Program-made: the position numbers and the translations under genes
Origin: Burkholderia latens
GTDB lineage: Bacteria; Pseudomonadota; Gammaproteobacteria; Burkholderiales; Burkholderiaceae
Direction of reading: 5' to 3'
Length of the DNA stretch: 64,000 bases
Assembly (NCBI RefSeq): GCF_001718795.1
Contig: NZ_CP013438.1
Span: 1,736,001-1,800,000, forward strand
The notes under the pieces: model-generated
The model's input: only the letters and a program-made list of their open reading frames with translations
Database searches by the model: none
Told to the model about the DNA's origin: nothing
In this document: one piece after another, positions 1,168 through 15,963 of the stretch
Position numbering within the stretch: position 1 is the first letter of the stretch
How the letters are laid out: the number at the start of each line of letters is the position of its first letter

Positions 1168-1794
1168 TTAGGGCGCCTCACCCCAGGGGTCGTAAGAGTA
1201 GCTTTCATCGATTGGTACGAAGTCAATACCTTTCAACGCGCAGCGCTCCACCTCGGCCTTAAAGTCACGATTGCAAACCAGCTCCATTGTTTCGGTGCAC
1301 CTGAACAAAACAGCGGAACAATCTTCACGCGGAACAAACTGCTTTATCCAGCTGTACATTGGAGTTCCCGGGTATAGATTATTTTCAGCGATCTCCTTTG
1401 TTTCCAAATCGCGGTCTTCCAAATACTCTGACTTTTGGCGATCAAGCAGTGATTCGTGATCGCCCGGTAAAAATATGGAGTAAACTTTTTGGCTGACAGG
1501 CTTCGCGTCCCTGACAATGTTTATGGGAATTGCGCGATAACGAACCCCCATTCTGTCACATACACCCAGAAACTCCTTCGACACATAATTCGTTTGCGCG
1601 CCGTAGAAGTCAAAATCAATCTGGACCGACGGATCAGACAACGTGAAAACATAGTCGTGCTTTACTTCGATGCCAAATGGATCGGCCACATACATAGGCC
1701 ATTCCCATTCTCCGCGATTCAATTCACCGGACAGATACGGCGGGCAACCTGCCTCTCCGGCGCGATATTTAACGACGTAGAAACGTGCATTCAT
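1168..1794 (-). CDS. Candidate immunity protein for the Rhs-AHH toxin (Imm11/Imm43-like)
   Basis: A 208-residue soluble protein without signal peptide. Its start overlaps the stop of the Rhs gene as TAATG, the usual arrangement of a cognate immunity gene. The C-terminal part (LVCNRDFKAEVERCALKG then IDFVPIDES) resembles the Imm11/DUF1629 family, which in myxobacteria sits beside AHH-nuclease toxins; Imm43 is an alternative. Base composition is clearly poorer in GC than the Rhs core, as is usual for recently exchanged toxin tips and their immunity genes. The role as antitoxin is inferred from position; the family match is by eye. Confidence 0.7.
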   Translation of the reverse strand: MNARFYVVKYRAGEAGCPPYLSGELNRGEWEWPMYVADPFGIEVKHDYVFTLSDPSVQIDFDFYGAQTNYVSKEFLGVCDRMGVRYRAIPINIVRDAKPVSQKVYSIFLPGDHESLLDRQKSEYLEDRDLETKEIAENNLYPGTPMYSWIKQFVPREDCSAVLFRCTETMELVCNRDFKAEVERCALKGIDFVPIDESYSYDPWGEAP

Positions 1795-4700
1795 TAAAGT
1801 AACCTTCCCGTTATTGCATCAATCGCATATTTACCGGACTCCAAGCCCTCGCGCGCCATATTTTGAATGCGCCCTACACCAAGCGCAAGTTGCGTATCGC
1901 TGAGACGGCCGGCAAGGAATTGTTGGTTCAACTTCTTTAGCTCGGTTTCAATGGCCGCAGTGTACTGGCCATGGTTCGACCAGTGTCCGGGTAGCTCGAG
2001 CGTTTGCGCTAGCTTCGAGCTACCGGGCAGGAATATGCCATTGGACGCGCCATCACCATCGAAACCCATACCGCGCAACCGATTGAACATGGCTGCATAG
2101 TCGGGATGCTTCATGAGCTCTTCGGGAATCAAGTGATGGTTCGCCATACCATCACCAGAACGCGCGCCCATATTGTTCCCGAGCTTCGTCGAGCACCACC
2201 CCATCGGATCGACCAGGGTCAACGGGTTCGCGGCATATGCGTACAGATTTTCGCCGCCCAGCAGCCCGATCGGATCATGATTGATGAACCGCCCAACATC
2301 CGGATCGTAGTACCGGAACGTGTTGTAGTGAAGTCCGGTGCTGTCATCGGCATATTGTCCGGCATAGCGCAGGGGCTGGTCGGTCCGGGCCGTAGTCGAT
2401 TGCCGACTCCCCGGCTCGACCTTGCCCCAGGCCGAATATTGCCCGGCCCATGTCAACCCGCCCGACTCGTCGGTCATTTCCAGCGGCGCCCCCACTAGGT
2501 CGGTATGGAAGTGGTAGATCCGGGAAGTCCGCTTCGCGGTGTCGATCGCTGCGGCCGCAAGTGCCTCCGCCAGCACCGCGTCGACGCGCGCGGCGGGCGA
2601 GTACGGCTCGCCAGGGCTGTACACATAGCTGCTCACCCCGGTTTCGCGGACCTCCTGCGCAAGTCTCAGCCCCTCCCATACGAACCGCTTCGTCTCGGTG
2701 CGCTGCTTCACGCCGCGGATGTCGAAAAACGTATCGGACTTCGCGATGCGCCGACCGAGAGGATCGTAAGCGAAGCGCGATTCCACAACGCCGCGCGCGT
2801 CCTGCGTGCGCACCGCGATCAACCGATCCTGCCCGTCGTACGTAAAGCGCTGCGTCCGGTTCGCGCCCCGCATCTTGGCCACCAGATTGCCGAATGCATC
2901 GTATTCGAACCGCAGATCCTGCCACATTCGCAGACGGTTGCCTTCGACATATCCGCGGCTTCTGCGCTGCACATCGTCGAGCATGTTACCGGCGGCATCC
3001 CACGCGAACTCCTCTAGCTGTCGGTCCAACATGTTCACGCGTCGAGTCAGCCGTCCAGCCGGGTCGTAGTTGTACTGCGTGCTGCCGCGCAGGTTGTCAC
3101 TCGTTTCGATCAGTTCGCCGGCGGCATCGTACCCGTAGCTACGCCACAAATGGCCGCGCCCGCGGCCCAGCGCCTCGGGCTGGAAACCGGCGGACTGCCA
3201 GACCTTTCGGCCAAGCGGGTCATACGCAGAACGCTGAATCAGCCGCCCTTGCGTACGTGTCAGCTCGCGATGCAGGTCGTCGCGCTCGAAGTCGCTGACT
3301 ATCTGATCGCCGCAACGGATTTGATGCACGTGGCCTGAGCCGTAGCGCAGCATCTGCAGCGTCTGCTCGTGCGGCAATTCGAGCGTCATCACGTTGTCCA
3401 GGTCGTCCAGCGTGTACTGAACGGTTCCGTTTGCACCATGCTCGGCAACAAGGCGGCCGGCCTTGTCGTACTCAAACTCAACGGTATCCGGCGTAATGCC
3501 GAGTGCGACGCCCATGGTCGTCGGGGTGCGCTCCACCTTCAGCAGCCGATCTCCCTTGTCACGCTCGTAGCGGGTCACTTCGGTCGGCGTGTGCTGGACC
3601 TTCAGATTCCCCATCCGATCACGCTCGAATCGGACGGTGCGGATCGGTCGATTCGAGGTTGTACCGCTGTCCGGCGCGCCGACGATGTCCAGCGCGACCA
3701 GTTCTCCGGCTTCGCCGTACCCGAACCGCCGTTCGACGCCATCGGGACGTGTTTCGGTCGCAAGTCGACCGCCGGCGCTATACGTGAAGGCGTAGCGCGC
3801 GTGTCCCTGCTGTAGCTCCCGAAGCCGCCCCTCGGGATCGTAACGGAAGCGGGTCCGTCGGCCAGCCGGATCAATTGCCTCGACAAGCTGCCCCCGTGCA
3901 TTGCGCAGCGATTGTTGAATCCGGCCACCGAGTCCGACGTGTTGCACGACGAGCCCGGCCGCATCGTATTCGAAAGTTTCCGTACTGCCGTCGGGATAGG
4001 TGATCCGACGGGGCTCACCGGTTGGACGCACGTCATACGAGATGCGCTGCCCGAGCGCGTTCTCGCGTGCGAGCGGAAGGCCGAACGCATCGAAGAACGT
4101 ACGCGTTGTTTTGCCCGAGCAGTCCGTGTAGCCGACCAGCTCGCCAAGGCGGTTCCACTCCAGCGTTTTGCGGCCACCCCGTGCATCGACGTGCACCGTC
4201 GGCAGCGCGGTCAATCCTTTGGGATATTCGTAACGATTCTCACGGCCCAGCGGGTCCTGAGTCGACAGCAGCCGACCTTGCGGATCGTATTCGGCACGCC
4301 AGGCGCCCCCATCAGCCCCGATGATCTCCACGGGCCGCATGCTGTTGCCGTCATAGCGGGTACGCGTCGTGCGCCCGAGCGGATCGGTTTCCGCGACGAT
4401 CCGGCCGGCGTCGTCGTATTCGAACTGGACCGTCCGCTCGCCCGGCAGCATGAGCATCGTCGGCATACCCGCATCGTTGTACTTGACCCGATAGAAGCCA
4501 CCGTCGAGGTCGGTGTACTCGATGATCTGAAACGCAGCGTCGAAACGCCAATGCGTGGTACGGCCGTCGGCAAGCCGAACGCGAGTTTGCCGACCGTTGA
4601 CGTCGTACTCGAAGGTCCAGTGTTCACCCTCGCTGGTGTTCGTCTCGACGACGCGCTGCTGTCCTTCGATCATTGACCACACGTAGCTCGACGTGAAGCC

Positions 4701-6059
4701 CAGCGCATTGGAATGACTCGTCATCAGGCCGTCGGCATACCTGAATCGGCGCACGATTGCTCCGTTTGCATCCGTCACAGAGGCTAGTTGGCCGTTTTGG
4801 TCGTACCCGTAGGTGACAGCAACCCGGCGCTCGTCACCGTGAACGAGTGTGACCACGCCAAGGCGGCCGTGCTCCGGTTCATAATCGAGCGCAGCCTGCA
4901 GGCCGCCGCACGTCTGGATTTCGGTGACGCGGCCACGGCTGTCTCGCTCGAACTGGTACCACTGCCCTGCCTGATCCTCGATGCGGCGCACCCAGGCGAT
5001 GCGGCTGGAATCCGGATCGTATCGGCCGAAGTCGAAATATGTCTCGCCGACGTCGCGCAGGATGTAGCGGCCGTCGGGTGCGCAGACCAAGTAGAGCTGG
5101 TCAGCCTCGCTGAATGCCGCCTGCCCCGCACGCAGCAATGGAAATCCGCTTTCTCGCCCCTGAGCGTCGGTGTACCAGAGGCGTCCGTCTCGCGCCTGGA
5201 GTCGAAGCTCCCACGGCAGGACCCAGCCGCGGCCGAGCGAGCCCACGTAGTCGAGGCTGCTCGAATAGAATCGCTTAATCGCGACCGGCATCGGGCTTGG
5301 GATCACGTAGTCGGTTTCTGATTCGGCCAACAGAATCTTACGCCCGGTCGTGACGTCGACCGGGTTGCCGAACATCCCGCCGATCGCCTTGTTGATCGCG
5401 GGACCGGCTACGTAGCGCCCCACTGCTTCGCCCAACACATAACCGCCGATGAATTTGGCTGCGCACGGTAGCACTGCCCGCGACAGGCCGCCGGCCTGCC
5501 TCAGCAGTCCGCCTAGGCCGCCTACCAGCCCTGCCAGAGCAAACGCCCAATCCGTTGCGGTCCGAAGCCACGGCGGCACCTCATCGGCGACGGGGAGATA
5601 CGTCTGCGTGCCGCCGTGGAAGAATGTGTCGTGCGAGCCGTCGCCGATCGTGGCGCCGCAAGTGGTTTTGTCGTCCTTGCGTGCGGCGGGCCGACCGTTG
5701 ATGAAGATGTTCGTCGAGCCCTGCGCGACCAGAGGTATGGGATTGTGCTTGGTGCATGCCACGCCGCTTAGCGTTGCATAGGCGGCCGGCTTCCCGTTCA
5801 CATAGACGTCCGACGAGCCAGTGACGATGTTGCCGGACGGCGAGCTGAACATCCGGCCAACCGCCTCTCCTAATGAAAGCAGCACCTGCGCGCCGATCCC
5901 AGCCGCCATGCCGGCGAGCAGCGCGACACCGAAACCGCATGTGAACGTAGCGAATGCGACGGCGGCGATGAGCGCGATTCCCAGGACAGCGCCGACGAGA
6001 AAGCCCGTGAGCGCACTGGTGTGCTCGATCGGGTCAGTGACGCGTGCGGCTTCGTACAT
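1794..6059 (-). CDS. PAAR-Rhs type VI effector with C-terminal AHH nuclease
   Basis: A 1421-residue polymorphic toxin. The N-terminus has paired hydrophobic segments (residues 15-65) followed by a PAAR-like spike domain ([14 protein letters not shown] to [20 protein letters not shown], about 75-150) and a second hydrophobic segment. The middle is a long YD/Rhs repeat shell ending in the core signature [11 protein letters not shown]. The last ~130 residues are variable and carry [10 protein letters not shown] and GHWSNHGQY, the hallmark of AHH (HNH/Endo VII-fold) DNases. I place the start at ATG 6059 ([10 protein letters not shown]) with a purine-rich ribosome site; an upstream in-frame start would overlap the chaperone gene. 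It probably loads on the VgrG tip and delivers a nuclease to rival cells. Confidence 0.92.
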
Positions 6060-6079
6060 TCTTCGGCCCTTTCTAGTTG

Positions 6080-6538
6080 TTATGCTGTTTCCGGCTCGGC
6101 TGGCAGGTAACCCTCGAGCCAATTCCGCCAGAGGGCATCGAACGATTCGCCGAAGCTCTTCGCACTCGATGCCGTGAAAATCAGTACACGACCGGGCGCC
6201 ACGATAAACGCCGCTTGCCGTTGAAAGACCATCTTTGCGCCATTACGGTACGCCGTGTCAATGCGCTCACCGGGCATGGCGTCCACCTCTGGCCCAAGAC
6301 GTTCGGCTTGGCGTGAGATCAGCCGATGGCCTTGCAAACGCGACTTGAGCATCGCCAGCTGGCGGTCGATGTAGGGTGCCAGGGTTTCGCCGTCCTTGAG
6401 CCAGTCACGCGCGATGCTGAGGTTCGGCTGCGTCGCGAGGTCGGTGGGAACGAATAGATTGGTCGTACGATCCTCGAAGCCATCCGGCAGGACTATGCTG
6501 CCTTCGTGAATCCGGATGCGGTTGTCGGAATCGTTCAT
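6080..6538 (-). CDS. EagR-type Rhs effector chaperone (DUF1795)
   Basis: A 152-residue cytoplasmic protein of the DUF1795/DcrB-like fold ([20 protein letters not shown] at the N-terminus). EagR/EagT6 chaperones bind and shield the N-terminal transmembrane segments of Rhs or PAAR effectors before loading on the type VI spike. It lies 20 bases upstream of an Rhs protein that has exactly such segments, so the pairing is strong. Length matches the family (about 140-150 residues). Confidence 0.88.
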
Positions 6539-6650: not shown

Positions 6651-7520
6651 TCAATCGGTCTGGCCCGCGGGTGTCACGACTTTTTCGCCGCGCGCACGCA
6701 TGGCCATTCGTTGCGCCTTCGGATCGATCGGCGGCCACGGCGCGCCAGCCGCGACGATCCTGCGGCGGATTGCTTCGACGCGCGCACGCGCCGGGGAATC
6801 GGGCGCCGTGTGCTTTTCCATCGTGTTCTGCAGTACCCAGCCGTACGAAACGCCCAGCTGGTTGGCCACCTTCGGGTCAGCGCCGTGCGCGAGCAGATAA
6901 TCGACTGCATCCCACTGTTGGAGCGACGTCGCATCGAAGATGGCTGTCGCGCCGAGTGAGTCGCGAAGGTTCACGTTCGCCTTGTGTTCGACCAACAGCT
7001 TCAGTTGTGGCAGGAGTTTGTTTTCCGCGACTTCGAAAATCATCGGCGTATCGCCGCTAGGCCGCCAGTTGGGATCGAGACCACCGTCCAGCAGCACGCG
7101 AAGCAAGTTCGGCGTGTCGGCGTGCAGCGCGGCATAGACGACCGTCCCACCGCTAGCGCCGACCGGCGCCTTGGGATCTGCGCCGTTCTTGAGAAGCGTC
7201 GCAATAATCTGGTAGCGCGGGTTTGCAGCATCGTTCTTGACCGGGACGATCTCCTGCACGGCATACGACAAAAGAGTCGTATTCTTCGCGCCCGGGGCAT
7301 TCAGGTCGGTCTTCGGCGCGAGCTGCTGAACGCGGGCAAGATCGCCGTCATGAATGGCCTGAGCCAACGTGAGCTGCTGCCCCGAAAAGAAGTCTTCCGG
7401 TGCGTATCGTTTGAAGCCAGCCATGTTCGTCCCTTGCGCTTGAGTGGGCCACCAGAGCGGCGAGGTCACTCCAATGAGTGCCGCAACCGTGCCGGCAGTT
7501 ATCGCTTTCTTGAATTGCAT
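6651..7520 (-). CDS. Exported ankyrin-repeat protein, candidate immunity to the VgrG-lipase
   Basis: A 289-residue protein with an N-terminal signal or membrane-anchor segment (AITAGTVAALIGVTSPLWW) and several ankyrin repeats (LLKNGADPKAP, LLDGGLDPNWRP, LVEHKANVNLRD, LLAHGADPKVAN). The start follows the VgrG-lipase stop by one base, implying coupling. Lipase effectors act on membrane phospholipids from the periplasm, and their immunity proteins are exported. An exported ankyrin protein fits; specific neutralisation is inferred from linkage only. Confidence 0.78.
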   Translation of the reverse strand: MQFKKAITAGTVAALIGVTSPLWWPTQAQGTNMAGFKRYAPEDFFSGQQLTLAQAIHDGDLARVQQLAPKTDLNAPGAKNTTLLSYAVQEIVPVKNDAANPRYQIIATLLKNGADPKAPVGASGGTVVYAALHADTPNLLRVLLDGGLDPNWRPSGDTPMIFEVAENKLLPQLKLLVEHKANVNLRDSLGATAIFDATSLQQWDAVDYLLAHGADPKVANQLGVSYGWVLQNTMEKHTAPDSPARARVEAIRRRIVAAGAPWPPIDPKAQRMAMRARGEKVVTPAGQTD

Positions 7521-7521
7521 A

Positions 7522-10500
7522 TCAGTGTGAGGAATTCAGTTGTGAAACCAGATCCAGCTCGTCCTTCGCGACTTGCTGGTTCATCCCGGTCGTCACGTCT
7601 CCCATCATGTGGCGCCCAACAGTGGTGATGCTCTGGCCATCGAGCGTAACCGGGGTGCCCACCGCTTTGGGCATGAGTTGAGCAGTACCATCACTGATCG
7701 GCCCGAGCCGACCTTCCTGGAGCCCGGTCAATATGTCACCGTCGACGCGATAGGCCGTAATGTTGGTCGGTTGAACCGTCCCGCCGTACTGCGCGACCGT
7801 TTCGGGATTGAGGCCGGCCGCATTGAACGTAACGGCCGAACCACCGCTCGCCTCCGCTGCGGCAGAAGCCATCCCGCCGCCTAACGAGTGTCCGGTGAAA
7901 TCGACGCCTGACGCCGCGCCCGACTGTTCGAGGCGACTACCGATGGTCACGGCTTTCCGGTAGTACGGAGATTCATCGCCGAGTCCTTGCGCCATGTTGT
8001 TGCTCATATCGTCGCCCCACGGCGCGAGGCTCTGTGTGCCCTTGAACGCGATGGTTGGCTTCATGCTGTCGCCGAAAACCTTCGGGTCGGGCACATACAT
8101 TTGCGAACCGAAGTTGCTGCCGTCGATATGGAAGTTGTCGGGCTTGAGGCCGAACGCCTTCAGCGCCTCCGGATCGTTGGTGGCCACCTTCCATCCCGTG
8201 GGTGGCGGATCGTTCGGGTGGTAGACGTGATCGGCGAGCTTCGCCATTTGCTGCGCCTTGAGCGAGCTCGCGTATTTCGCCGCTGCCGCACGTGTCGCCG
8301 GATCGGAACTCGCGAGTCCTTCGGCGATCATTGCCTGCGCAGCGGCCCACTGCAGCGCAAGCGCCTGTTCGGGGGCCTGGGCACTGCCCTGGTTCAGGTG
8401 GATGACCGGTGCGTCGAGATAGATACCGTTCGCGTTCATGAGGATCGTCGACGGTCCGTGCGCCAGCTTTATGCCGTCCGGCGTCATCGTCACGATGCTT
8501 TCGCCGACACGAAACTCCATGCCGTCGCTGGCCTGGTGACTCTGCATCCCGGGGCCAGCCTTGCTCGCGATCGCCTTCGTGTTGATCACGTTCGCGGTGG
8601 TGTCGCGCGTCAGCGCGATGGTTTCGGTCAGCCCGCCCTGCGCGATCTGCTTGGTTTCGCTGCCCTTGAGCAATGAAACAGTGCGTGCGCCCGCTTCCAC
8701 AGTATGCGTTTCGGAATCCTTGATCACGGTCTTCATATCCTTCTGAGCATGCAGAAAGACTTCCTGAGCACCGTTCACGTCGGAAAACCGCAACTCGTTC
8801 GAGCCCTGCCCTTTGTGCGTCTGGCTCTTGATCCCCATCGTCTGGCCAGCCGCACCGTGGTAAGGATTGCCTTGCTCACCGTTGAACACACGCCCCACAA
8901 TCACCGGGTTATCAGGATCGCCCTGATTGAACGAGACCAGAACTTCCTGCCCGATCCGCGGAATCGCAGCTGCACCCCACCCCGCACCCGCCCATGGCTG
9001 GGACACACGAATCCACATCGAGTCAGACCCATCCATCTGCCCGCGACGATCCCACAGGAAGTGCAGCTTCACGCAACTGCCGTTCGTATGGATTTGCTCG
9101 CCTATCGGACCGACTACAATCGCCGACTGAGTTCCATGGATGACCGGCTTCGGCGTGTTACGCGGCGCGCGGTACGGAATTTTTTTCGGCAGAAGCGCGA
9201 ACGAGTTGCGGTACGGCATCTTCGCGGCATGTTGCGTGTAGTCGTTCACCGCTTCGTGCCGCACATGCAGGATCGCGTATTCCTGATTGTTTGCCATCAC
9301 GGGATGATTGGCTACCGTCACACTGCCGGCGGTGGTCATTCTCCATGCATAGCCGCCACCGGTATATCGATGCGCCTGAGCTTCCTCGGCCTGCATCGCG
9401 ATGCGCGCGTAGCGATTGCCGTCGTCACCGTGGTCATACAGCGACTGGTGCTCGAAACGCTCCGTTGCATCGAGCCGCGCGTGTCGCAACGTCTGCGGCT
9501 CAGCCTGTACGAGCATCAGGGGGGACGACGGGTTCTGATGATTGAAATCCTGGAACGTGACCTTGCCGACGCCGAAACGCCGGCCTTCGTGCAGTTGATC
9601 GATTCCATTGAACTCGCTGGCTTCACTGTCCGCATACGGCACAGTTGTCAGGCCGTCGATTGGGCGAAACACGAAGTTGGTATCGCCGATCACGAGAATG
9701 TGTTTGTCCTTCTCGTAGCGGTGCGTCCAGATCAGCCCTTCCTGCTCCATCAATCGCGCGCAAAAATTGTAATACGACTCCTGGTACATCACGATGTACT
9801 CGAGGGGTTTCTGGGCGGTCCGGATGTCGAACTCGAAGTCGGTGAACCCGTGATCCTGGAAAATCTCGCCGAGGATTTCACGCGAAGTCTTGTTCTGGAA
9901 AATTCGACAATCGGTCGAGCGCGTCAGGAACCAGAACCAGGGCACCACGGTCATGTGGTACTGCGTTACGCGCCCCGGATTGCCGGCGCGATCGAAGGAC
10001 GCGACATACCCGTCGAAATAGCGGTTATTTTCGGCACCTCCGGACATTACGATGCGTTCGAGTGTCGATTGCCGCGCATCGTGATCGAGCCGCAGCTTGA
10101 TTGGCTGGCCGATCAGATGATCCGGCGTGAGATCATGCTGATGCGACAGCAAATCGAGATGAATTTCCGGCAGGCGATTGACGTATTCGTCGATGACCGC
10201 AGCACCGACCAATAAAACGTCGGGCCCGAGCGGAGATTCGATCGTCACATACCGGTTCAGTTGCGTGAGACGAGCGACGCCGCCCGTTGCATTGTTGAGC
10301 GCATCCGCAATCGCAGCGGGCGTCTTGTTCATCAGCGAGAAACCGGTCTGCGCCAATTGCACCGCGCGCTGTACGGTGTCGAGATGGCCGGCGACGCCAG
10401 CAAGCGGGCCGATTTGACCGGCCACTGTGGACGCAATTGGACCGGCAAGGCCGCCGAGCGCACTCAGTGAGCCCAACGAATTCCCTCCGAATCCGCTCGG

Positions 10501-10527
10501 AATACCGCCATTCGGGGCGAAACTCAT
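7522..10527 (-). CDS. VgrG spike protein with C-terminal lipase domain (evolved VgrG)
   Basis: A 1001-residue protein. Residues ~60-560 are the gp27/gp5-like VgrG trimer region (ESPLGPDVLLVGAAVIDEY, then the OB-fold segment VLVSFNQGDPDNPVIVGRVF), followed by a DUF2345-like beta-helix. The last ~280 residues are an alpha/beta-hydrolase of the class 3 lipase type: nucleophile elbow FTGHSLGGGMA with the serine near residue 879, and a likely Asp (VDGDILTG) and His (GRHMMGD) nearer the end. It would be both the type VI tip and an anti-membrane effector. The next gene on the strand is its likely immunity gene. A complete T6SS apparatus is not in the window. Confidence 0.93.
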   Translation of the reverse strand: MSFAPNGGIPSGFGGNSLGSLSALGGLAGPIASTVAGQIGPLAGVAGHLDTVQRAVQLAQTGFSLMNKTPAAIADALNNATGGVARLTQLNRYVTIESPLGPDVLLVGAAVIDEYVNRLPEIHLDLLSHQHDLTPDHLIGQPIKLRLDHDARQSTLERIVMSGGAENNRYFDGYVASFDRAGNPGRVTQYHMTVVPWFWFLTRSTDCRIFQNKTSREILGEIFQDHGFTDFEFDIRTAQKPLEYIVMYQESYYNFCARLMEQEGLIWTHRYEKDKHILVIGDTNFVFRPIDGLTTVPYADSEASEFNGIDQLHEGRRFGVGKVTFQDFNHQNPSSPLMLVQAEPQTLRHARLDATERFEHQSLYDHGDDGNRYARIAMQAEEAQAHRYTGGGYAWRMTTAGSVTVANHPVMANNQEYAILHVRHEAVNDYTQHAAKMPYRNSFALLPKKIPYRAPRNTPKPVIHGTQSAIVVGPIGEQIHTNGSCVKLHFLWDRRGQMDGSDSMWIRVSQPWAGAGWGAAAIPRIGQEVLVSFNQGDPDNPVIVGRVFNGEQGNPYHGAAGQTMGIKSQTHKGQGSNELRFSDVNGAQEVFLHAQKDMKTVIKDSETHTVEAGARTVSLLKGSETKQIAQGGLTETIALTRDTTANVINTKAIASKAGPGMQSHQASDGMEFRVGESIVTMTPDGIKLAHGPSTILMNANGIYLDAPVIHLNQGSAQAPEQALALQWAAAQAMIAEGLASSDPATRAAAAKYASSLKAQQMAKLADHVYHPNDPPPTGWKVATNDPEALKAFGLKPDNFHIDGSNFGSQMYVPDPKVFGDSMKPTIAFKGTQSLAPWGDDMSNNMAQGLGDESPYYRKAVTIGSRLEQSGAASGVDFTGHSLGGGMASAAAEASGGSAVTFNAAGLNPETVAQYGGTVQPTNITAYRVDGDILTGLQEGRLGPISDGTAQLMPKAVGTPVTLDGQSITTVGRHMMGDVTTGMNQQVAKDELDLVSQLNSSH

Positions 10528-12536: not shown

Positions 12537-13424
12537 TCACACTAAGGTTGCTGAATCCATTGAGCGCCGGAACTCGCGAGGCGAGCGGTACTTCAGCGCG
12601 CTATGGGGATGCTTCTCGTTGTAATGCTCGAACGCGATGGCCAAGTTGCGTGCAGCAGTCGCTGCGTCCGGCTTTGGCATGAAGGCAACGTAGTCGCGCT
12701 TCATTGTCTTCACGAAGCTCTCGGCCATCCCGTTACTTTGCGGGCTGCACACCGGCGTGGTCAATGGCTTCAGGCCGATGGCCGCTGCAAACCGGCGTGT
12801 ATCGTCGGCCGTATAGCCCGAACCGTTGTCACTCAGCCACTCGATTTCGGACGGTGTATGCAGCTCGTTGCCAAACCGATTTTCCACTGCTGCCAGCATG
12901 ACGTCGCGCACGATGTCGCCGCTGTGACCTGCCGTCGTAGCCGCCCAGCTCATCGCTTCGCGGTCGCAGCAGTCAAGCGCGAATGTCACTCGAAGCGGCT
13001 CGCCGTTGTCGCAGCGGAACTCGAAGCCGTCCGAGCACCATCGCTGATTGCTGCGCGCGACGGCCACCTTGCCATCGTGCCGACGTTGCGGCCGAGGCGG
13101 GGCTGGACGCCGTTGCATCAGCAGACCGTGAGTGCGCATGATGCGATAGATGCGCTTCGCATTGAACGGCACCTGTCCGGCAGCAATGCGTTCATTGCGC
13201 AGCGAGCCCCACACCCGGCGATAGCCATAGCTGGGCAAATCGCCGACGACTCGGCGGATTTCCTCGACCACGCTCGCATCGTCCGTCTGCCGCGATTGAC
13301 GGCCATCGCGCCACGTCACCGGACGCGACAGTCGTGCCGATACGTTCGAGCGCGACACGCCGAGAACTTCACAAACCAGTTTCACTGGTCGTCCTCCGGC
13401 AGCGAGGGCGAGTGCGCTATCCAT
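12537..13424 (-). CDS. IS2-group transposase OrfB (DDE integrase catalytic subunit)
   Basis: A 295-residue catalytic subunit with the HTH_21-like segment ([16 protein letters not shown]) and an rve-type DDE core: [16 protein letters not shown] around the first Asp, [18 protein letters not shown] with the second Asp, and [20 protein letters not shown] with the Glu. It is expected to be produced as a fusion with OrfA by -1 frameshifting at the A7 run at its start. The stop lies 19 bases inside the left end of the element. Confidence 0.9.
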
Positions 13425-13747
13425 TTTTTTGCTCGGCCATACTCGACTGCTTCGCGGAGAATCTCGTTCTCCATGGTCTTCTTGCCGAGCATCCGCTGCA
13501 GCTCACGAATCTGCTTGAGGGCATCGGCCAGCTCTGATGCAGGGACCACTTCCTCTCCAGCCTTGACCGCCGACAGACTCCCGTCCTGGTACAGCTTGCG
13601 CCAGTGGAACAGCTGGTTCGGGTTCACGCCGTGCTGGCGCGCAACCATCGAAACCGACTTCCCCGGTTCGAAACTCTCGCGAACCATCGCCAGCTTCTGC
13701 TCCGCCGTCCAGCGCCGCCGACGCTCCGGGCCCGTCAACACTTCCAT
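13382..13747 (-). CDS. IS2-group transposase OrfA (HTH protein)
   Basis: A 121-residue DNA-binding subunit: an HTH_8/IS3-type helix-turn-helix ([18 protein letters not shown], then [18 protein letters not shown]) and a C-terminal leucine-zipper-like coiled coil ([20 protein letters not shown]). I chose the ATG at 13747 ([13 protein letters not shown]) because AGGAAG precedes it; a GTG start 30 bases upstream is possible. It overlaps OrfB by 43 bases. Confidence 0.88.
13424..13430 (-). promoter_or_regulatory. A7 slippery site for -1 ribosomal frameshifting
   Basis: On the minus strand the OrfA frame reads GCA AAA AAA TGG. The A AAA AAA heptamer is a classical -1 slippery sequence, and slipping back one base leads directly into ATG GAT AGC of OrfB, giving an OrfAB fusion as known for IS3-family elements. 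Confidence 0.75.
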
Positions 13748-13828
13748 CACTTCCTGCCTGGTGTTAGTCAAAAACACAGTCTTATGCCTACCCGCTAGTT
13801 TAAGTGAGAGGCTATGTCCGGTGTTTCA

Positions 13829-15027: not shown

Positions 15028-15759
15028 TTACTTCGCGATGAACACGCCCGTCGTCGGACAGGTGCCTTGCGTATTGCCGTCCGTCACGAGCGACGCCGCA
15101 CTGGGGAACTGCGCGGTCGCGTTCGTCTTAACCGCGATCCACGCTTCGGTGAAGTAGCTGACGCCGTTCGTCTTCGTACACTTCAGCGACACCGCGCTGC
15201 GCGTACTGCTGCCGAACGCGCCTTCGAACGCGGACAGCAGCTGGTTGCGCGTCACCGTCTTGCCCGCATTCGCCTGCAGGAACGCATTGAACGACGTGTT
15301 GCCGAGCCGGCTGATCATCCCGGTCGCGTCGTTCCAGTACGCATCCGGCGACGCCGAATTCGAGCAGGTGCCGTGCTTGAACCACTCGTGCTTGTCGAGA
15401 CACGACGCGACGCCGGGCATATATGTCGACAGCGTGCTGCGCGTCGAGCTGCTGACCGGATAGGCGTCCATGCTGCACCACTGATGCGCGTTGTCGAGAT
15501 CGACGTCGCTTTGCGGCACGCCGCAATAGAACGGCTGGTTGCCATCGTAACGGTTCGGCCACAGGCCGTGCAACGACAGGCTCGTCGCCGCATACGTGCC
15601 GGCAAGGTTCGTACACTCCGGCGTGTCGTGCGATGCGCAAAAGCCGGGCTCCCACGAGGCAGCGAGCAACAAATAGTCGTAGCCGGTCTGCGCAACGGCG
15701 TGCAGCGAGGCGGATGCGACGGCGATTACGGCCGCGGCGCGGGCGAGCGTCTTGAGCAT
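15028..15759 (-). CDS. Secreted ribonuclease T2
   Basis: A 243-residue exported endoribonuclease. The signal peptide is MLKTLARAAAVIAVASASLH followed by AVAQ. Both family active-site motifs are present: CAS I as SLSLHGLWPNRY and CAS II as KHEWFKHGTCSN, giving the catalytic histidines. Several cysteines suggest disulfides in the periplasm or outside. Start at 15759 is preceded by GAGGAAA; upstream in-frame codons would extend past the signal peptide and are rejected. RNase T2 cleaves single-stranded RNA to 3'-phosphates via 2',3'-cyclic intermediates; here a scavenging role is likely. Confidence 0.93.
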   Translation of the reverse strand: MLKTLARAAAVIAVASASLHAVAQTGYDYLLLAASWEPGFCASHDTPECTNLAGTYAATSLSLHGLWPNRYDGNQPFYCGVPQSDVDLDNAHQWCSMDAYPVSSSTRSTLSTYMPGVASCLDKHEWFKHGTCSNSASPDAYWNDATGMISRLGNTSFNAFLQANAGKTVTRNQLLSAFEGAFGSSTRSAVSLKCTKTNGVSYFTEAWIAVKTNATAQFPSAASLVTDGNTQGTCPTTGVFIAK

Positions 15760-15963
15760 GGCGTTTCCTCGGAAAAGGCTTGCGGTCACGGGATGCGCCG
15801 CAAGATTATCGAATATCTGCCCACGATTGTTGCCGACGCAACGTGGCACGAATATGAAGGCTTACGGGCAATTTTCCGCAGCGCGGCATTCGTCATCGCC
15901 GCGCGCCGGCACGCAACAGCGACGCCGCGATGTCGCGCCGGGCCGCCGTCCGGGGCCGCGCGA

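Follow-up and report, generated by a model that had tools for sequence, protein, structure and literature searches.

Several described systems resemble, in one or another of their parts, the cassette reported here. In a computational listing of 2012, Zhang et al. (PMC3482391) tabulated the pairing of Tox-AHH toxins with Imm43 immunity proteins, beta-proteobacteria included, and gave the toxins a signature of [AG]HH followed by N, H, H, and Y. In our searches, Imm43 was named as an immunity family in one computational survey, and its Pfam model (PF15570) came up in one further paper. Among members of the AHH family (PF14412), V2a (PMC10902643) and Txe2 (PMC9020831) both degrade DNA and are toxic in Escherichia coli, and Txe2 of Pseudomonas plecoglossicida, which likewise joins an Rhs core to an AHH nuclease tip, is neutralised by its neighbour Txi2. 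In Myxococcus xanthus, MXAN_0050 and MXAN_0049 are an AHH-type nuclease and its adjoining immunity protein, and for delivery the counterpart is RhsA-EagR1-VgrG1 of Pseudomonas protegens. Here, we analysed a 64,000-nucleotide stretch of Burkholderia latens (contig NZ_CP013438.1, positions 1,736,001 to 1,800,000; the window), in which an eagR chaperone gene, an rhs gene, and a downstream gene for a 208-residue protein (imm) belong to an intact, ordinary Rhs nuclease cassette of the type VI secretion system (T6SS). More specifically, we are highly confident that the locus is a polymorphic-toxin cassette, whose shell-delivered deoxyribonuclease (DNase) tip with an NHH motif and Imm43 antidote are exchanged as one unit. 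Sequence comparison shows how the genes are ordered, which domains and conserved sites they have, that tip and partner are coupled, and that cassettes are exchanged. Delivery, self-cleavage, nuclease superfamily, and Imm43 pairing have already been described or predicted; a single locus adds little to them, and its value is comparative.

The C-terminal tip of the rhs product matches PF14412 with 41.7 bits within the full protein and 45.6 bits alone, the Pfam cut-off being 22.3, and the same model is matched (E ≤ 0.01) by all 23 tips in our alignment, which rules out a new toxin family. A reading made earlier from the sequence alone (the sequence-only reading) had called this an AHH nuclease tip; here the family stands, but the motif at the predicted active site is NHH, found in 24 of 24 protein relatives and invariant in the 23 aligned tips. 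Hence, the [AG]HH of the published Tox-AHH signature is absent, with N replacing A or G in every one of these sequences, while the rest of it (N1340, H1359, H1363, and Y1366) is invariant in the aligned tips. In another set of 13 tips, the tyrosine is nearly invariant, there being one phenylalanine. Because the Pfam score is passed but N stands for A/G throughout the relatives, we treat the tip, going by its sequence, as part of an NHH subclade of PF14412 and not as canonical Tox-AHH. By analogy with characterised relatives, we infer DNase activity for the window tip. There is a slim chance that it is instead a His-Me nuclease acting mainly on RNA, with delivery and immunity unchanged, as colicin-type enzymes that cut RNA also belong to the HNH/ENDO VII fold, and we came across no data on what the NHH subclade cuts. 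Two observations speak against an RNA target: DNA is degraded in E. coli by V2a and Txe2, both characterised PF14412 effectors (PMC10902643, PMC9020831), and the study that names MXAN_0050 an AHH nuclease used genomic DNA for its nuclease assays.

The shell behind this putative DNase tip has, to judge by its domains, the features of a class I prePAAR Rhs effector, namely a prePAAR_I motif (PF25799; 90.5 bits over residues 1-57), a PAAR domain (63.4 bits), Rhs repeats (RHS_repeat; 245 bits), and eagR and vgrG as neighbouring genes. Along the N-terminus, hydrophobic 19-mers begin at most positions from 13 to 46. Txe2 is unlike the window Rhs in being without prePAAR and PAAR. The protein proposed as a DUF1795 chaperone is matched by DcrB with 122.8 bits, and altogether the arrangement of EagR, class I prePAAR-PAAR-Rhs, nuclease tip, and immunity protein read from the sequence is confirmed by Pfam domains far beyond chance. 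In a sequence search of the protein data bank (PDB), the best solved relative of the Rhs protein was 7q97 (E 1.2e-178), which we take to be P. protegens RhsA. Similarity to it stops at residue 1301 of the window Rhs, and hence the tips differ, but the two proteins are alike in the PAAR domain, the Rhs cocoon, a pair of aspartates 22 residues apart, and the tryptophan at the chain end. In RhsA these are the catalytic aspartates 1324 and 1346 and W1350, at which the density stops, within the consensus PxxxxDPxG followed by W, L, or F (PMC8765631); their counterparts in the window, which follow the same consensus, are D1262, D1284, and W1288. The DPMGW end, singled out in the sequence-only reading as less usual than DPxGL, is thus normal, since the consensus allows W, both RhsA and Acidovorax RhsB (PMC10989746) are reported to be cut after tryptophan, and 18 of the 24 proteins with this tip end in W (6 in L); we have discarded the idea of an odd cleavage site. 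Moreover, in the alignment with 7q97, N232-P233 falls on the H-P pair at which RhsA receives its N-terminal cut, and by analogy we infer a cut there too. We think it very unlikely that this strain maintains only immunity while its rhs gene has decayed or gone silent. Truncated tips do accompany intact immunity genes in two other genomes (G026 and G449), but the window reading frames are intact, the conserved residues are in place, and near-copies of the Rhs protein, with 1412 and 1414 of its 1421 residues identical (99%), are recorded under the names B. latens and B. cenocepacia.

As for the 208-residue protein, it matches Imm43 with 25.9 bits, the Pfam cut-off being 25, and the same scan did not list Imm11 (PF07791) at E ≤ 1; Imm11 is therefore ruled out as its Pfam label, though retained as a fold relative. 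The protein is near-identical to one from Burkholderia sp. AU28942, and two close relatives are already named "Imm43 family immunity protein". Together with the near-copies of the Rhs protein, the AU28942 match would place the window in Burkholderia, probably in the cepacia complex. With the Imm43 cut-off passed and the Tox-AHH/Imm43 pairing in print since 2012, the suggestion that a loose Imm11 match might signal a new toxin-immunity pair falls away. The comparison with toxin families that had been proposed for the last ~130 residues and the 208-residue neighbour returned PF14412 and Imm43. Relatives in the equivalent gene position match Imm11, and among 33 aligned partner proteins, Imm43 is matched by 16 and Imm11 (E ≤ 0.01) by 18. 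The PDB sequence search found no sequence relative of the 208-residue protein, but its predicted fold matches that of MXAN_0049 (PDB ID: 6A4C) at 19-20% identity, and this would link Imm43 with a structurally solved family.

To see how closely tip and immunity protein go together, we relied on a scan of named genomes with the tip alignment, which gave 26 loci (Pseudomonas quercus twice) from Burkholderia, Pseudomonas, Pseudoduganella, Kosakonia, Yersinia, Xenorhabdus, and Providencia. At each of the 26, the stretch immediately downstream matches the immunity profile, with the toxin or immunity frame broken in some, and this count is not circular because the loci were picked by the tip and the profile was built from relatives of the immunity protein. 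Stop and start codons of the two genes overlap in 17 of 24 cases. When the tip was searched for class-wide, 369 genomes yielded a single weak match. Within Burkholderia, the tip is matched at E ≤ 0.001 in 13 of 65 genomes, closely in 6 (two of these over the second half only), and the immunity gene is present in each of the 6. For the alignments, we left out L013, L030, and L031 (broken tip frames) and L021 (broken immunity frame), and kept the tip of L028 while dropping its broken immunity gene. Across the resulting 22 pairs, the identities of tips and of immunity proteins have a correlation of 0.85, a value reached in none of 9999 permutations, with mean identities of 0.64 for the tips and 0.32 for the immunity proteins (230 of 231 comparisons, at tip identity < 0.95). 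As a control, the last 60 shell residues were added for 19 of the 22 pairs (L012 and L014 are too short upstream, and L024 has a stop in the stretch), giving 0.84 for tip-immunity, 0.41 for core-tip, and 0.28 for core-immunity, which were reached in 0, 0, and 3 of 4999 permutations; given the core, the tip-immunity correlation is 0.83. The tip-immunity tie is thus far stronger than that of either part to the shell end, although the latter is not zero. From the coupling at 26 of 26 loci and the co-divergence with the tip, we regard the downstream gene as very probably the cognate immunity gene. That it is a bystander or a general polyimmunity protein, with protection coming from elsewhere, is hardly credible. 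The further related immunity genes in tandem at L008, L011, L014, and L019 might be taken to point that way, but the coupling, the overlapping codons, and the co-divergence that persists after allowing for the shell end all speak otherwise. In three of those loci (L008, L011, and L019) there are two tip-immunity pairs in tandem, the second being broken in L019, and L014 has a second immunity-like gene. Separately, L036 and L037 (genomes G449 and G026) match the tip over its second half, without the active-site part, next to a full-length immunity gene that appears to be an orphan.

Exchange of the tip and its probable cognate immunity gene is seen on the Burkholderia shell locus itself, for which we used the ankyrin-repeat gene (ank) as a marker. 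This gene occurs at E ≤ 1e-60 in 21 of 65 Burkholderia genomes, and we covered 18 of 23 ankyrin places, leaving out those in G028, G021, G437, G449, and G431 at 55-58% identity. The order vgrG-ank-eagR-rhs is found in 14 of 18 stretches examined, L049 having been added to 17 others; the remaining four are L084 and L085 (no rhs), L089 (rhs fragments), and L049 itself (without the ankyrin gene). In 13 of the 14, the shell carries another tip, and six other tip types could be told apart from Pfam scans of 9 of these 13 tips and 8 of their neighbours, with L082 and L083 typed by their match to the L080 tip and L086 and L087 by having tips 93% and 95% identical to that of L077. These are AHH (L075, L077, L086, L087, and L091; Imm11 neighbours in L075, L077, and L091, with which the other two align at 66% identity), WHH (L080, L082, and L083; SUKH neighbour shown for L080), Endonuclea_NS_2 (L076 and L090; Imm-NTF2 neighbour shown for L076), a Pput2613-like deaminase (L078), a DddA-like tip with Imm1 (L088), and a tip without a Pfam match (L081), while L079 has NHH-Imm43 as in the window. 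At L075, L076, L091, L077, and L090, five loci whose tips differ from that of the window, DNA similarity to the window rhs extends along the shell and stops close to the last base of the DPMGW codons (query base 4405), namely at query bases 4410, 4407, 4411, 4433, and 4368, respectively, whereas in L079, with the window cassette, it continues past these codons. The low GC (guanine plus cytosine) content noticed earlier in the immunity gene is real (48.5%), and together with 53.7% in the tip, as against 63.7% in the shell and 65.8% in the whole window, this drop would fit exchange. Hence, one vgrG-ank-eagR-rhs platform bears seven tip types, including two homologous pairs (NHH-Imm43 and AHH-Imm11), and this set makes the tightness with which immunity follows toxin directly testable.

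Other features of these sister loci may be mentioned alongside. In L090 (10166-12330) and L091 (9836-11346, both in the rhs direction), a displaced NHH tip with Imm43 and a partial rhs core lies behind a full-length rhs with a different toxin; rhs-linked orphan modules of toxin and immunity genes have been described in other settings (PMC3150448, PMC3967940, PMC7043789). On the minus strand of L078 (3009-4211), the gene after the deaminase tip encodes 286 residues with an FGE-sulfatase domain, and its product would be a candidate immunity protein of an unusual kind. In L081 (3385-4142, minus), the tip (107 residues) and its neighbour (147 residues) both lack a Pfam match at E ≤ 0.1 and are possibly an undescribed toxin/immunity pair. 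The L088 tip (3461-4253, minus), next to its Imm1 neighbour, resembles the double-stranded DNA deaminase DddA. Both BCAS0663, a PAAR-Rhs protein with a WHH end, and DddA are described T6SS effectors of B. cenocepacia and so belong to the same genus, with tips akin to those in L080 and L088, but their toxin domains and immunity genes are other than those of the window.

With AHH-Imm11 and NHH-Imm43 on one platform, we tentatively propose, with somewhat less than even confidence, that Imm43 and Imm11 are one fold that co-diversified with the whole of PF14412, and that the two pairs descend from a single pair and no longer cross-protect. Judged from divergence, it is plausible that the window cassette has a specificity distinct from that of the sister AHH/Imm11 cassettes. 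In profile comparisons, the window immunity set matches the sister-locus Imm11 set only partially (53 columns, probability 71.6), and the NHH tips match the sister-locus tips better (84 columns, 94.7). Because the immunity match is partial, the case for common ancestry leans more on the fold match and the Pfam overlap. If true, the locus offers a natural series for watching a toxin-immunity specificity split.

As regards mechanism, EagR would hold the Rhs protein by its hydrophobic N-terminus, and the PAAR domain of the Rhs protein would cap the spike, namely the VgrG encoded just upstream. The Rhs shell would enclose the 133-residue tip, and the predicted aspartyl-protease pair D1262/D1284 would cut after W1288. 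After injection, the tip, as a metal-dependent His-Me DNase with its NHH motif, would cut target DNA in the target cytoplasm, while the acidic Imm43 protein, made from the overlapping start codon, would bind the tip and protect the producer and its kin. One way for such binding to work could be active-site blocking, the mode in which an unrelated protein inhibits Tde5 (PMC13392607). Tde5 is a recently described DNase of the beta-beta-alpha-metal type, and the majority of its 139 homologues are found with one alternative immunity protein. For Tdi5b, inhibition at an exosite has been modelled. Tip and immunity gene would recombine together, passing from shell to shell as a single unit through exchange close to the conserved rhs core end. 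For secretion, cleavage, DNase activity, and neutralisation, this scheme follows the precedent of characterised relatives.

A number of observations weigh against the cassette as so interpreted. The PDB sequence search found no solved structure related to the tip, the matches being chance ones alone, and the AlphaFold2 model of the tip has a mean predicted local distance difference test (pLDDT) score of 63, with residues 1-22 and 51-75, which cover most of the predicted active site, below 50. The Imm43 score is barely over its cut-off. In the seven Burkholderia genomes with a weak tip match, the neighbour matches the immunity profile weakly (L038-L043) or not at all (L044). The shell end, too, shows correlations with tip and with immunity that exceed those of permuted data, so shared descent enters into the pattern alongside exchange. 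Lastly, the immunity protein is negatively charged in 22 of 22 pairs, but the window tip, with a pI of 7.2, is neutral overall, unlike the other 21 tips, which are basic; this weakens simple charge complementarity, and we therefore make no claim of electrostatic mimicry.

Within the window, the open reading frames, coordinates, and lengths of the three genes first described are as claimed, all on the minus strand (Table 1), and in the TAATG overlap the imm start codon does lie inside the rhs stop codon. The three genes are not self-contained, however, since vgrG and the ankyrin gene precede them in the same direction, and the actual unit is vgrG-ank-eagR-rhs-imm, five genes.

Table 1. Features of the vgrG-ank-eagR-rhs-imm island in the window
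Feature	Position	Strand	Remark
imm gene, 208 residues	1168..1794	minus	Imm43 family; predicted MXAN_0049-like fold
rhs gene, 1421 residues, prePAAR-PAAR-Rhs shell-tip	1794..6059	minus	ATG at 6059
eagR chaperone gene, 152 residues, DcrB/DUF1795	6080..6538	minus	Pfam match
Ankyrin-repeat gene, 289 residues	6651..7520	minus	candidate immunity against the hydrolase-like domain of the preceding VgrG
vgrG, 1001 residues, C-terminal alpha/beta-hydrolase-like domain, GHSLG at residue 879	7522..10527	minus	presumed carrier spike
Class I prePAAR motif and hydrophobic segment, Rhs residues 1-57	5889..6059	minus	Pfam
PAAR domain, Rhs residues 73-138	5646..5843	minus	Pfam
NPVDVTTG, Rhs residues 232-239, candidate N-terminal self-cleavage site	5343..5366	minus	aligned with HP pair of 7q97
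DPIGL, Rhs residues 1262-1266, first aspartate of predicted protease pair	2262..2276	minus	22 residues upstream of second
DPMGW, Rhs residues 1284-1288, second aspartate; predicted cleavage after W1288	2196..2210	minus	
Toxin tip, Rhs residues 1289-1421 and stop	1794..2195	minus	predicted His-Me (HNH/ENDO VII) nuclease, PF14412, NHH subclade
NHH motif, Rhs residues 1307-1309	2133..2141	minus	both histidines predicted catalytic/metal-binding pair

The C-terminus of VgrG is weakly lipase-like (Lipase_3, E 0.021) and resembles the SA1320 family (E 2.7e-11), both matches lying below the cut-off of the family concerned. The ankyrin gene directly behind it (window 6651-10527 for the two) may encode the immunity protein of VgrG. 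Some 2 kb upstream of vgrG, two overlapping minus-strand frames (12537-13777) resemble, by eye, an IS3-type transposase. Further along lies a gene for a ribonuclease T2 family protein (15028-15849), and on the other flank of the island one for an anti-sigma-K factor (RskA_C; 35-781).

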